Shown: positions 594 through 11,434 of the stretch, one piece after another
How the letters are laid out: each line of letters starts with the position of its first letter
Position numbering within the stretch: position 1 is the stretch's first letter
Origin: a virus
IMG/VR virus record: IMGVR_UViG_3300046559_000051
Span: 1-27,561 of that record
Direction: 5' to 3' (one strand)
Length of the DNA: 27,561 nt
The notes under the pieces: model-generated
Seen by the model: the letters and a program-made list of their open reading frames with translations, nothing else
Told to the model about the DNA's origin: nothing
The model's database searches: none
Position numbers and translations under genes: made by a program

Positions 594-637
594 TGTTGAC
601 GTACTAAAAGCGTTTTAGTATTCTGGTTACGTCAACA
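594..637 (+). promoter_or_regulatory. Promoter with palindromic operator, copy 1
   Basis: A -35 hexamer TTGACG (596-601) and a -10 hexamer TATTCT (619-624) are separated by 17 bp. The spacer carries the palindrome TACTAAAA-GCG-TTTTAGTA (602-620), which partly overlaps the -10. The whole element is bracketed by a second inverted repeat, TGTTGACGT (594-602) and ACGTCAACA (629-637). The arrangement is what a repressor-blocked promoter looks like. The same spacing, -10 and palindrome core recur at 1567-1595. The downstream gene has a good ribosome site (CAGGGGAA) before ATG 655. Confidence 0.75.
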
Positions 638-654
638 AAAAACAGGGGAATAAA

Positions 655-858
655 ATGTCGGCATGGGAAAAGCTGGTCGCGCAGGTCGAAAAGGATCACG
701 GAACGCGCGGACCGATGTTTGACGCGGTCATGGCGGCGGAAGGAAACGCGCCGGCCGGCGACGATAACGCGGCATATGAATCGCTGTCGCTGACGGTAAT
801 TTTCGAAGCGCGCGCCGACGTCCGCGCGTATTTCGAATCGATCGGCTACGCGTATTAA
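655..858 (+). CDS. Small acidic protein of unknown function, first gene of accessory operon 1
   Basis: This 67-residue protein starts at ATG 655, placed about 7 bases after CAGGGGAA, one of the best ribosome-binding sites in the window. It is acidic and probably helical at the N terminus (MSAWEKLVAQVEKDHG) and again near the C terminus (FEARADVRAYFESIG). I recognise no family, signal peptide or membrane segment. It is the promoter-proximal gene of a four-gene unit (655-1490) driven by the palindrome-bearing promoter at 594-637. Its size, acidity and position next to the genome end resemble host-takeover or counter-defence genes of other phages, but nothing in the sequence proves such a role. 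Confidence 0.7.
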   Translation: MSAWEKLVAQVEKDHGTRGPMFDAVMAAEGNAPAGDDNAAYESLSLTVIFEARADVRAYFESIGYAY

Positions 859-871
859 GGGTCGACCGGCC

Positions 872-1057
872 ATGCGCACAAACGAACATGTCGACGCGGC
901 CGAAGTCGCGCACCGCGTCGCCGCATATCCGATGCTTGTCGAGGCGCTCGAGGAATTGCTGTCGTTCCTGGGCGAACCGACCAGCAATGCAGGCGAAGAC
1001 GAAATCCGCTTCGGGCGCTATGCGCTGGCGCGGGCCAAATTCAGAAAGGGGGAATGA
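872..1057 (+). CDS. Small helical protein of unknown function, operon 1
   Basis: This 61-residue protein starts at ATG 872, 13 bases after the preceding stop, with the weak purine tract AAGGG upstream. It is predicted largely helical: an N-terminal helix with VDAAEVAHRVAAYPMLVEALEELLSFL, a short polar loop, then a helix RFGRYALARAKFRKG. Its stop overlaps the next start as ATGA (1054-1057), so it is probably translationally coupled to the next gene. The leucine/alanine pattern could support dimerisation. No family is recognised. Codon use matches neighbouring genes, so it does not look like a recent acquisition. Confidence 0.65.
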   Translation: MRTNEHVDAAEVAHRVAAYPMLVEALEELLSFLGEPTSNAGEDEIRFGRYALARAKFRKGE

Positions 1058-1296
1058 TGGAAGTCGAAAAGGGTCGGCGCCGGACGCTGGTCGGAAACCT
1101 GACCGTCCAGACGCTGCGCACGCCGCGACAATGGCTTCAGATCACGCGCGACCCGTCCCGGCGGACATTCACGCTTGCGCGCGGATACGCCGGCGAGGTC
1201 CTAGCGCATGCGCGGGAAACCTGGTCGTTTGTGTCGGTCCCGCACTGGGACGACGCGGTCGAATTGGCTGTCCAACAATTGAAGGATTGGGAATGA
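1054..1296 (+). CDS. Small protein of unknown function, operon 1
   Basis: This 80-residue protein begins at the doubled start ATGATG (1054 or 1057) after the strong purine run GAAAGGGGGA. The N-terminal third is basic and beta-rich (KGRRRTLVGNLTVQ, RQWLQITRDPSRRTFTLARG). The C-terminal third is an acidic amphipathic helix (HWDDAVELAVQQLKDWE). This suggests one compact alpha/beta domain. No recognised family, membrane segment or metal motif is visible. It overlaps both neighbours by ATGA-type junctions, so the three genes 872-1490 are likely made in fixed proportion from one mRNA. Confidence 0.65.
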   Translation: MMEVEKGRRRTLVGNLTVQTLRTPRQWLQITRDPSRRTFTLARGYAGEVLAHARETWSFVSVPHWDDAVELAVQQLKDWE

Positions 1297-1490
1297 TGGC
1301 GCAAAAAACCTTTAAAGCGCTGACGAAACCGTATTCGACGGACGCGCTGATCGGGATGGGGTTCGCGCGCGACGGCGCGCAAATGGTCAAGCGCGGCGCG
1401 CGGCGCGTCGATTTGGCGATCGCGTACAGCGCGAACGGCGACATATGGCGAATCACGCCGCTGGTCGGTAAGCGGGTCTGGCGACCGTAA
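1293..1490 (+). CDS. Small basic protein of unknown function, last gene of operon 1
   Basis: The start is ATG 1293 (or 1296, again a doubled ATGATG), overlapping the previous stop. The product is 65 residues. A longer open frame runs upstream from 888, but it lies across two better-supported genes, so the short version is chosen. The protein is basic (KALTKPYSTDALIGMGF, VKRGARRVDLAIAYS, PLVGKRVWRP). Its pattern GMGFARDGAQMVKRG..RVDLAIAY..NGDIWRITPL suggests a small beta-rich fold. I do not recognise a family. A terminator follows 43 bases after the stop. Confidence 0.6.
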   Translation: MMAQKTFKALTKPYSTDALIGMGFARDGAQMVKRGARRVDLAIAYSANGDIWRITPLVGKRVWRP

Positions 1491-1532
1491 TCGATAGGCG
1501 TCAAATAATCGACGCGACAATGGCAACACGAC

Positions 1533-1555
1533 GCCGGCGAAATGCCGGCTTTTTT
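1533..1555 (+). terminator. Rho-independent terminator of operon 1
   Basis: Stem GCCGGC (1533-1538) and GCCGGC (1544-1549) with loop GAAAT, directly followed by six T residues (1550-1555). It separates operon 1 from the second palindrome promoter that starts about 12 bases later. Confidence 0.85.
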
Positions 1556-1566
1556 GCGTCAATCGC

Positions 1567-1595
1567 TTGCAACACTAAAATAATTTTAGTATTCT
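1567..1595 (+). promoter_or_regulatory. Promoter with palindromic operator, copy 2
   Basis: A -35-like TTGCAA (1567-1572), a 17-bp spacer and -10 TATTCT (1590-1595). The spacer contains the palindrome ACTAAAA-TAA-TTTTAGT (1574-1590). Palindrome core, spacing and -10 are identical in layout to the promoter at 596-624. The central triplet and flanks differ, which indicates that the arms are the conserved, probably protein-bound part. The outer inverted repeat of copy 1 is absent here. Confidence 0.75.
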
Positions 1596-1626
1596 CTCTA
1601 CATCGACAACGCAACGGGGAAACGAA

Positions 1627-1906: not shown

Positions 1907-2098
1907 ATGGCGAAGCGCGTACCGATTCGACGGGCGGAAGGCTGGAAGTTTTGCGGCGCGGCCGGAAAGTTTGCCGTATGGCACGCCGGCAAAAACCTGT
2001 ATCACGTCACGGACGGCGACCAGGGCGAAATCATCGGAACGCGCGACCAGTTCGGCCTGGCGTTTAGCATGGCAAGCCGGCTTTACCTGGCGCGATAA
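1907..2098 (+). CDS. Small basic protein of unknown function, operon 2
   Basis: This 63-residue protein starts at ATG 1907, chosen because it directly follows CTCGAGGGGAACGAA; the open frame upstream to 1724 lies across the previous gene. It is basic and appears beta-rich (KFAVWHAGKNLYHVTDGDQGEIIGTRDQ) with a C-terminal helix (FGLAFSMASRLYLAR). It has one cysteine and no metal-binding pair. No family is recognised. It is flanked on both sides by similar hairpin-CTCGAG-ribosome-site modules, so it may be an interchangeable single-gene cassette. Confidence 0.65.
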   Translation: MAKRVPIRRAEGWKFCGAAGKFAVWHAGKNLYHVTDGDQGEIIGTRDQFGLAFSMASRLYLAR

Positions 2099-2148: not shown

Positions 2149-2334
2149 ATGGAAAACCAGAAAATCGTCGTCAAATACAATCCGCGTCCCTGGCAATCGT
2201 TCAAGCGTCCCGTTTGGAGTGACAGCAAACCGTTTGTTGTGTACGTCGACGGCCAGGTCGCGCTGGACAAGCAAGGCCGGGAACGCCGGTTCGAAACTGA
2301 GGCTGGCGCTAAAAAGGCGTTCGGCGTCGCTTAA
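2149..2334 (+). CDS. Small basic protein of unknown function, last gene of operon 2
   Basis: This 61-residue protein starts at ATG 2149 behind the ribosome site GAGAGAAACGAAA. Its pattern is KIVVKYNPRPWQSF, then PFVVYVDGQVALDKQGRERRFETEAGAKKAFGVA: a basic strand, a beta-hairpin (YVDGQVALDKQG) and a short C-terminal helix. That layout recalls small single-domain phage proteins with a strand-turn-strand-helix fold, but I cannot name a family. A terminator hairpin follows 24 bases after its stop, closing operon 2. There is no sign of truncation. Confidence 0.65.
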   Translation: MENQKIVVKYNPRPWQSFKRPVWSDSKPFVVYVDGQVALDKQGRERRFETEAGAKKAFGVA

Positions 2335-2357: not shown

Positions 2358-2380
2358 AAAGCCGGCGCAATGCCGGCTTT
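2358..2380 (+). terminator. Terminator-like hairpin closing operon 2
   Basis: Stem AAAGCCGGC (2358-2366) and GCCGGCTTT (2372-2380), loop GCAAT. The U-rich tail is short because the right arm runs directly into the palindrome TGTAGTTTCTACA. The stem has the same GCCGGC core as the terminator at 1533. Confidence 0.65.
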
Positions 2381-2392
2381 GTAGTTTCTACA
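2380..2392 (+). promoter_or_regulatory. Palindrome TGTAG-TTT-CTACA, member of an intergenic operator-like family
   Basis: A perfect 5-bp inverted repeat with a 3-bp spacer lies 14 bases before ATG 2406. Related elements are TGTAA-GTT-TTACA at 9476 and TTTGTA-ATTTC-TACAAA at 26627. Each lies a few bases upstream of a gene that follows a terminator. I see no clear -35/-10 pair at this copy. Confidence 0.5.
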
Positions 2393-9505: not shown

Positions 9506-11434
9506 ATGAAGCTGGGTTTGCTCTATCGCTTCGCGCAATTCGACGGGACGACCGTCGACACTGAACAGCGCACCGCACGACTTTCGTTTTCGAGCGAAAC
9601 GCCTGTCCGTCGCGAATTCGGAAATGAAGTCCTGTCGCACCGCGCCGGCGCCGTTGATTTGGCCCGGCTGAACAGCGGCGCTCCGCTCCTGTTTAACCAT
9701 AATCGCGATGACGTCCTGGGCGTCGTCGAATCGGCCGAAGTCGGCGCCGACGGCCGCGGTTACGCGACCGTACGTTTTGCGAAGACGCAGCGCGGCGACG
9801 AAATCATGGGCCTGGTCGCTGACAAGGTCCTGACGAATGTGTCGACCGGCTACAGCATCGCGACGATGGACAAGACGGCCGGCGAACGCGGCGGACCGGC
9901 GACATTCACGGCGACGAAATGGACGCCGGCGGAAATCTCCATCGTCACGGTTCCGGCGGATCCGTCCGTCGGCATCGGGCGCGCTGAAAGCATCGAAGAA
10001 ATCGAAGTCGCTGTCCGCGACTTGTCCGCGGCACCGGCCGCAATCATTACCACAACAGGGAACACTATGACCCCGGAAGAAATCGCGGCGCAGCAAGCAG
10101 CGGCACGCCTTGAGGCGCGCGACGCCGAACGCGCACGCCAGACGACGCTTAACGTCCTGGCGACGCGCCATGCAAGCGTCGCCGGTATGGGCGACCTGAT
10201 CCGCCAGCTTCGCGAAAGCGACCAGCCGCTGGAAGCCTGTCGCGCTGCCGTGCTCGAGAAGCTCGGCGCCGTCCAGGTCCCGGTCGGCGACGGCCAGCGC
10301 GACGCGCTGGACCTGACGGACAAGGAAAAGCGCGCATATTCGCTGGTTCGCGCACTTCGCGCGCAAGCGGACGGCAACTGGTCGGCGGCTGGATTCGAGC
10401 GCGAATGCTCGGTCGCACTCGCCGGCAAGCGGGGCCAGGAAACCGCGGGCTTTTATTTCCCGACCAACGTCCGTTTCGAAGATCCGACCGGCGATATCAC
10501 CCGCGCGGCATCGGCGAGCGCGTACGCGGCCGGCGCTGGCGTCGGCGCGACGGGCGGTTCGAATTTGGTCGCAACGCAGCTTATGGCCGGTTCGTTCATC
10601 GACATTCTGCGTCACAAGGCGCTGGTAATGCAGATGGGCGCGACCGTGCTTTCGGGCCTGGTCGGCAACATCGCGATCCCGCGTCAAAAGGGCACGTCGC
10701 AGGTGTACTGGATTTCCCCGGAAGGCGCGGACGTCACGGAAAGCGAAGGCCAGTTCGACCTGGTAAGCATGTCGCCGAAGACCGTCGGCGCATACAACCA
10801 GATCACGCGTCAAATGCTGATGCAGTCGACGCCGGATATCGAATTGCTGGTCCGCAATGACGTTGCGCGCGTCATGGGCCTGGGTATCGACTCGGCCGCA
10901 CTGGTCGGCACCGGCACCGCCGGCCAGCCGCTGGGCGTCTTCAACCAGGCGGGAATCGGTTCGGTCGTCGGCGCTGGCGGTAACGGCACGGCGATTTCGA
11001 TCGACGACATGATCGACCTGGAAACGGCCGTTGCGTCGTCGGACGCGGACTTCGGTTCGCTCGCGTATATGACCAATGCGAAGGTCGTCGGCGCGCTCAA
11101 GAAGCTCAAGTCGACGACGGGTCAATACCTGTGGACGAACGCACCTGGCGGCCAGCGCGGCGCCACGCCGGGCGAAATCAACGGCTACACGGTCGCGCGT
11201 ACGAATCAGGTTCCGTCGAATCTGACGAAGGGCACCGGGACCAACCTGTCGGCGGTTTATTACGGCAACTGGTCGGACATTCTGATCGCGGAATGGGGTT
11301 CGATGGAAATCCTGTTGAACCCGTACGGCGCCGGTTTCAAGAGCGGCACGCTTGAAATGCGCGCGCTGCAGGCGGTCGACGTCAACATCCGCCACGCCGC
11401 AAGCTTCGCGGTCAAGTCGGACGCAATCGCCTAA
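9506..11434 (+). CDS. Prohead protease-major capsid protein fusion (HK97 fold)
   Basis: This 642-residue polyprotein-like product has three parts. Residues 1-160 are an HK97-family prohead protease: catalytic-type H65 (LLFNHNRDD), S113 (LTNVSTGYSI) and an acidic partner in WTPAEISIVTVPADPSVGI. Residues 170-300 are a charged helical scaffold-like region (EIAAQQAAARLEARDAERARQ). Residues 320-642 are the HK97-type major capsid domain (TGGSNLVATQLMAGSFIDILRHKALV, IPRQKGTSQVYWISPEGADVTE, LLNPYGAGFKSGTLEMRALQAVDVNIRH). The protease normally removes the scaffold during maturation. An in-frame ATG with a good ribosome site at 10067 could also give capsid without protease. The ATG at 9506 follows GACCGGGTTAAAT and has a weak ribosome site. 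Confidence 0.93.
   Translation: MKLGLLYRFAQFDGTTVDTEQRTARLSFSSETPVRREFGNEVLSHRAGAVDLARLNSGAPLLFNHNRDDVLGVVESAEVGADGRGYATVRFAKTQRGDEIMGLVADKVLTNVSTGYSIATMDKTAGERGGPATFTATKWTPAEISIVTVPADPSVGIGRAESIEEIEVAVRDLSAAPAAIITTTGNTMTPEEIAAQQAAARLEARDAERARQTTLNVLATRHASVAGMGDLIRQLRESDQPLEACRAAVLEKLGAVQVPVGDGQRDALDLTDKEKRAYSLVRALRAQADGNWSAAGFERECSVALAGKRGQETAGFYFPTNVRFEDPTGDITRAASASAYAAGAGVGATGGSNLVATQLMAGSFIDILRHKALVMQMGATVLSGLVGNIAIPRQKGTSQVYWISPEGADVTESEGQFDLVSMSPKTVGAYNQITRQMLMQSTPDIELLVRNDVARVMGLGIDSAALVGTGTAGQPLGVFNQAGIGSVVGAGGNGTAISIDDMIDLETAVASSDADFGSLAYMTNAKVVGALKKLKSTTGQYLWTNAPGGQRGATPGEINGYTVARTNQVPSNLTKGTGTNLSAVYYGNWSDILIAEWGSMEILLNPYGAGFKSGTLEMRALQAVDVNIRHAASFAVKSDAIA
10055..10069 (+). promoter_or_regulatory. 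Internal in-frame ribosome site and start (Met188) within the capsid fusion
   Basis: ACAGGGAACACTATG lies in frame at the protease/scaffold boundary. It closely resembles ACAGGGGAACACCATG, which starts the gene at 27404. The encoded linker (IITTTGNT) is unlike structured protein sequence. It suggests either separate production of scaffold-capsid or a relic of a once separate gene. Confidence 0.6.

Follow-up and report, generated by a model that had tools for sequence, protein, structure and literature searches.

Near the left end of a phage genome fragment, two neighbouring operons of small genes are preceded by promoters that hold the same palindrome, which raises the question of whether one regulator serves both operons, which protein that would be and which other genes it would reach. 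The window analyzed here, the whole stretch of 27,561 nucleotides in record IMGVR_UViG_3300046559_000051, is an IMG/VR fragment of a phage of about 42.1 kb. A sequence-only reading had proposed that the palindrome, ACTAAAA-N3-TTTTAGT, is a conserved operator, through which a dedicated regulator encoded outside the window switches both operons as an accessory regulon.

Two Promoters of One Design in the Window

An exact-match search finds the palindrome at 603-619 and 1574-1590, and the two same-design promoters claimed at 596-624 and 1567-1595 are exact in coordinates and arms (Table 1). Each palindrome lies between sigma70-like -35 and -10 boxes set 17 bp apart, and at both sites the -10 box begins with the palindrome's final T. 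Operator 1 reads ACTAAAAGCGTTTTAGT and extends to the longer palindrome TACTAAAA-GCG-TTTTAGTA; operator 2 reads ACTAAAATAATTTTAGT. The consensus promoter scan calls site 1 and the third site described below, and gives site 2 a score of 8/12, which is under its cut. No further match with up to three mismatches lies in the 27,561-base window beyond these two sites, where 0.26 matches are expected at this threshold and two or more occur in 4 of 100 shuffles.

Table 1. Coordinates of operators, promoters, genes and terminators (window positions, unless a locus is named).
Feature	Position	Strand	Remarks
Promoter 1	596..624	+	-35 TTGACG 596-601, 17-bp spacer, -10 TATTCT 619-624; consensus scan 9/12
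Operator 1	603..619	+	exact match
Operon 1 gene 1, 67 aa	655..858	+	soil-phage homologs, 61-73% identity
Operon 1, 61-aa protein	872..1057	+	ORF; no Pfam family, PHROG match weak only
Operon 1, 80-aa protein, overlapping start	1054..1296	+	ORF; no Pfam family, PHROG match weak only
Operon 1, 65-aa protein	1293..1490	+	frame open to 1490
Intrinsic terminator GCCGGCGAAATGCCGGC-TTTTTT	1533..1558	+	scan; closes operon 1 directly before promoter 2
Promoter 2	1567..1595	+	-35 TTGCAA 1567-1572, 17-bp spacer, -10 TATTCT 1590-1595; register checked
Operator 2	1574..1590	+	exact match
Operon 2 gene 1, 75 aa	1627..1854	+	homologs in Bordetella phage PBb001 (65%) and contig G003 (68%)
Operon 2, 63-aa protein	1907..2098	+	in-frame ORF; no Pfam family
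Operon 2, 61-aa protein	2149..2334	+	ORF; no PHROG family
Terminator-like hairpin 3' of operon 2	2358..2386	+	scan
Promoter 3	L003:8638-8666		TTGACG-17-TACCAT around operator 3
Operator 3	L003:8645-8661		exact match
71-aa XRE-type HTH gene	L003:8916-9131		second gene behind operator 3, just before primase
103-aa HTH protein	L003:3017-3328		at divergent gene boundary
95-aa Acb2/Tad1 hairpin-domain protein	L012:16724-17011		just past the right end of the window

The small operon proteins that were searched gave no informative family match. The first protein of operon 1 has a predicted compact all-helical fold (pLDDT 94.7), for which the PDB and viral structure libraries hold no match, and its homologs in other soil phages each stand under a different promoter. 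ACTAAAA-N3-TTTTAGT is absent from the relatives of both lead genes (655-858 and 1627-1854), PBb001 and G003 included, and therefore the operator was not inherited with those genes.

Contigs G003 and G004 carry other shared promoter/operator repeats in its place. In G003 (locus L074), the sequence TTGACTGTT-N-AATCTC...TATGATTC is common to three promoters, at 10496, 12326 and 14031, and the first of them drives the homolog of window gene 1627-1854. G004 (locus L076), from another phage with a homolog of 655-858, has 12 sites like TAGTGGTCCACTA, among them five pairs exactly 21 bp apart (483/504, 4309/4330, 6176/6197, 11075/11096 and 11119/11140), and two such pairs stand directly before a ParA-like gene. 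This contig may be a phage-plasmid in which a larger regulon is controlled from dispersed operators.

A Third Site in the Complete Phage Genome

An IMG/VR pattern search returned two more contigs that belong to this phage, G001 (32,130 bp) and G002 (33,701 bp), and these join up with the window with 2-5 mismatches over overlaps of 1.3-16 kb. The G001 contig overlaps the window at both its ends, and the joined contigs close a circularly permuted genome of about 42.1 kb. The sequence-only reading had asked for the palindrome to be searched across the complete phage, and this search yields one additional exact copy, about 4.7 kb before the start of the window and again embedded in a promoter, with no fourth copy within three mismatches in the rest of the phage (two overlapping contigs). 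All three copies in about 42 kb are intergenic and lie within -35/17 bp/-10 promoters; the many copies inside coding regions that had been named as evidence against an operator are not there.

The palindrome appears in none of 100 dinucleotide shuffles of the 42,103-base composite. Some palindrome with 7-bp arms recurs three times in 3 of these shuffles, so that the three-fold recurrence by itself is only modestly unlikely. The strength of the case lies in the AT-rich nature of the site in DNA of 62% GC, its intergenic placement, the identical promoter register and its recurrence in unrelated phages.

The third promoter is followed by a 70-aa gene, a 71-aa helix-turn-helix (HTH) gene and a Prim-Pol primase/helicase gene; genes near this operon encode SSB, a helicase, a deoxynucleotide kinase, an exonuclease and an AAA protein. 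No gene diverges from site 3. No match to the integrase family PF00589 was obtained in the phage, the control being positive in 14 of 14 genomes. Elsewhere in the same phage, a 95-aa protein has a Pfam match (E 1e-11) to the Acb2/Tad1 hairpin domain; proteins of this family act against CBASS/Thoeris defence by sponging up cyclic nucleotides.

The Operator Recurs Beside a Family of 55-aa HTH Proteins

A DNA scan of IMG/VR with the pattern TTG-N4-ACTAAAA-N3-TTTTAGTA matched 15 contigs. In two of them (loci L085 and L092), which have about 50% GC and show no relation to the window phage, this promoter-operator combination stands before one small gene, after which comes a gene for a 55-aa HTH protein. 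A protein search with this phrog_409-like protein gave 51 loci, equal to 39 distinct proteins (here called HTH55). The operator, with at most one mismatch, lies within 900 bp upstream at 12 of the 39 distinct loci, against a mean of 0.025 and a maximum of 2 for 200 control palindromes; downstream of the gene, and with the reversed pattern, the count is 0. Two of the 12 carriers (L136 and L142) are on contigs that the DNA pattern had already brought up, and the other ten come from the protein search alone. Most carriers found without the DNA pattern keep the identical -35/operator/-10 register. When ten operator-carrying genomes were scanned, the operator stood almost exclusively at the HTH operon itself, with 0 control matches. 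Several carriers have a tandem second copy 30-41 bp upstream, and one or two small, seemingly mutually unrelated genes separate the operator from the HTH gene in these loci. An operator that serves more than one promoter, as had been claimed, is thus well supported by its few intergenic copies and by the same register recurring in unrelated phages beside an HTH regulator.

The recognition helix (helix 3) of the carriers follows the pattern S-[VEI]-Q-[TH]-L-[NI]-N, which separates them from the rest of the HTH55 family. The sole non-carrier with a carrier-type helix (L137) has a version of the operator with three mismatches at the right place. Such tracking between helix and operator, seen in sequence comparison, is the pattern expected if the HTH55 protein reads the operator. 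Non-carrier members often have other inverted repeats at this place, for example CAAAC-A-GTTTG, GAAAC-T-GTTTC or GGCG-N5-CGCC. In HTH55 phage isolates of Vibrio, Alteromonas and Plesiomonas, the spacers hold other, partly weak repeats. One contig, IMGVR_UViG_3300033148_002171 (L137 and L138), encodes two close 55-aa HTH paralogs separated by about 3 kb, and the diverged operator precedes the first. A literature search found no described operator with the palindrome ACTAAAA-N3-TTTTAGT; the UmuDAb box was considered as a known counterpart and set aside, as its sequence differs.

A Candidate Regulator in the Same Phage

The regulator is not encoded in the window, as had been stated; a candidate, the 71-aa XRE-type HTH protein, is encoded in the same phage, about 4.4 kb upstream of where the window begins. 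When the HTH55 family profile was run unfiltered against all 783 phage ORFs of at least 30 aa, this protein was the sole match at E<=5 (E=0.013, a weak value), and the match lies on the recognition helix (GVSEATLCNW in the 71-aa protein, gvSeqtLinW in the family). A profile built from the operator carriers alone reports it at E=0.11, and hhalign to the operator-linked family assigns it a probability of 65%, against 4% for the second HTH protein of the phage. Furthermore, the place of its gene behind operator 3 is that of the 55-aa gene behind the operator elsewhere. The protein has a predicted XRE fold (pLDDT 83.5), with helices 22-29 and 33-40 above pLDDT 90, and the nearest PDB folds to the model are Aca2, HigA2, C.Kpn2I and P2 C, none of them at E<=0.001.

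The phrog_409 profile has no match at E<=1 in G000, G001 or G002, and the 71-aa protein is thus not a member of that family. Its homologs at further loci (L016-L025), which also precede primase genes, have no such operator and no recurrent palindrome. Because its recognition helix departs from that of the carriers at two specificity-varying positions (Q to A, and N/I to C), we hold the 71-aa protein to be the binder with confidence only somewhat above even.

Weighing Other Explanations

The phage's other HTH protein, of 103 aa, HTH_3-like and with a possible zinc ribbon, might instead bind the palindrome. It is a real HTH candidate, no other protein of the phage matches HTH_3, and it has a distant homolog in Bordetella phage PBb001. 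However, that phage has no such operator, the promoter of the 103-aa gene itself bears no copy, and besides the low hhalign value the HTH55 family HMM did not report the protein, which makes it quite an unlikely binder. A regulator supplied by the host, a resident prophage or a plasmid, with phage promoters that bear its operator and so, for example, sense the resident element, would fit the recurrence of the operator across unrelated phages with phrog_409-like regulators and the lack of a phrog_409 member in the window phage. This, too, we think unlikely: a search of 84,980 bacterial and archaeal genomes returned only 19 pattern matches, mostly in AT-rich Firmicutes, cyanobacteria and MAGs, which apparently arose by chance and seem to point to no evident host family, and a phage-encoded HTH protein sits in the operon of operator 3 itself. 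Similarity to a Bordetella phage alone suggests that the host could be betaproteobacterial.

The fixed register between -35 and -10 could also mean that the palindrome belongs to the core promoter, forms a cruciform or serves as an element for a phage-specific sigma factor or RNA polymerase, and is not a repressor operator. However, both boxes, -35 and -10, are of the ordinary sigma70-like kind, the second palindrome of the relatives lies outside the core promoter, related HTH55 loci show other inverted repeats at the same place, and a non-exhaustive search identified no phage RNA polymerase or sigma gene, so that such an element is very improbable. That unrelated AT-rich promoter spacers came to agree by coincidence is scarcely credible. 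The shuffles that yield some thrice-repeated palindrome of this arm length never yield this one, whose three copies all stand in register in promoters, and the independent recurrence of the operator beside HTH genes refutes coincidence in practice.

Proposed Mode of Action

The reading we favour as the probable one is that the phage encodes a small XRE-type (Cro/Aca-like) autorepressor, the 71-aa protein, which closes three promoters with ACTAAAA-N3-TTTTAGT as its operator. Each operator fills the spacer of a sigma70 promoter, and a dimer bound there would exclude RNA polymerase. After entry of the phage DNA, the host polymerase would fire all three promoters strongly in an early burst, and the accumulating HTH protein would then close them together, shutting the replication operon, its own gene included, and two operons of small proteins. 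A palindrome in a spacer of the optimal 17 bp suits steric repression, and a MerR-type activator is expected to require a longer one. The position of the operator therefore favours repression over two-way switching. The single dedicated regulator proposed for both small-gene operons keeps the support of the shared operator, with its probable action narrowed from a switch in two directions to repression. The proposed co-regulated regulon likewise rests on the shared operator and would not be limited to small accessory operons, as the third operon holds the HTH gene and the replication primase. Very probably, the virus turns down three gene sets together via its own small repressor.

Comparison With Known Systems

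Aca autorepressors (PMC9410906, PMC9410881) offer the closest comparison in operon layout. The core of an acr-aca promoter always contains an inverted repeat, and some of these promoters carry another one beyond the core (PMC9410906). The phage studied here likewise encodes a small HTH protein behind a small gene (70 aa, then 71 aa), and has an inverted repeat within the core promoter of the HTH operon (site 3); a second repeat outside the core promoter is seen in HTH55 relatives (L085, L145, L148, L152 and L169). The predicted fold of the 71-aa protein is nearest Aca2 and HigA2; in a comparison with PDB chains, its matches to HigA2 (E 2e-8) and Aca2 (E 7e-4) are confined to the HTH, and Aca1, Aca7 and Aca10 gave none at E<=1. 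Over its length it is not recognisably Aca1, 2, 7 or 10, none of the operon genes concerned here is known to block CRISPR-Cas or other defence, and one repressor would here serve three dispersed promoters, the primase operon included. The 71-aa protein thus appears to resemble Aca repressors in mechanism and modelled fold, and we do not call it an Aca.

In an archaeal virus, early genes have been proposed to be under Aca8, with a shared regulatory sequence (PMC11065993). As here, several small early genes and the repressor gene of one virus share a promoter-embedded sequence; that virus has TATA/BRE promoters and a wHTH Aca8, whereas a bacterial tailed phage is concerned here, with sigma70-like promoters, an XRE-type HTH protein and three sites. 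The phrog_409-like 55-aa regulators (e.g., of Pseudoalteromonas H6/1, Marinomonas P12026 and Vibrio phages) share the operator and its register at the 12 loci described, that is, an operator in the promoter spacer of the regulator's own operon is true for about one third of the family, and it is found at site 3 as well. In contrast, the 71-aa protein matches this family only in the recognition helix, and the operator that is almost confined to one operon in their genomes is used at three promoters in the window phage.

The stoperators of mycobacteriophages are numerous asymmetric sites across the genomes of temperate phages, where they also stop elongation (PMC9283540, PMC6550527). They share with the present system one repressor with sites dispersed over a phage genome, but the sites here are three symmetric palindromes, all in promoters, in a phage in which no integrase was found. 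Lambda-type Cro/CI control also combines a Cro-like HTH protein beside replication genes with palindromic operators inside promoters. It differs from the present case, where no divergent CI gene and no integrase, and hence no immunity region of this kind, was found, each promoter has a single operator, and the regulon reaches two distant operons.

Meaning for Phage Regulation

Repressors with dispersed operators are already known. According to the literature searched, the new elements are the operator sequence, its association with a family of very small HTH proteins and the fact that a single phage employs it at three promoters. An operator sequence, a promoter geometry and a recognition-helix pattern are tied here to a common family of very small phage repressors, which makes specificity readable across phages. 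Promoter-embedded operators of this kind mark small genes that would be turned on early and then off, a class to which anti-CRISPR genes belong in systems that have been studied, and they offer a homology-free and testable choice of candidate counter-defence genes. It is possible, if speculative, that a tailed phage with no recognised integrase runs a dispersed anti-defence regulon, in which an Aca-like repressor encoded in the replication operon turns off both this operon and two distant operons of small anti-defence genes, through one operator embedded in each promoter. If this is true, the operator could be used as a probe for new counter-defence genes in phages.
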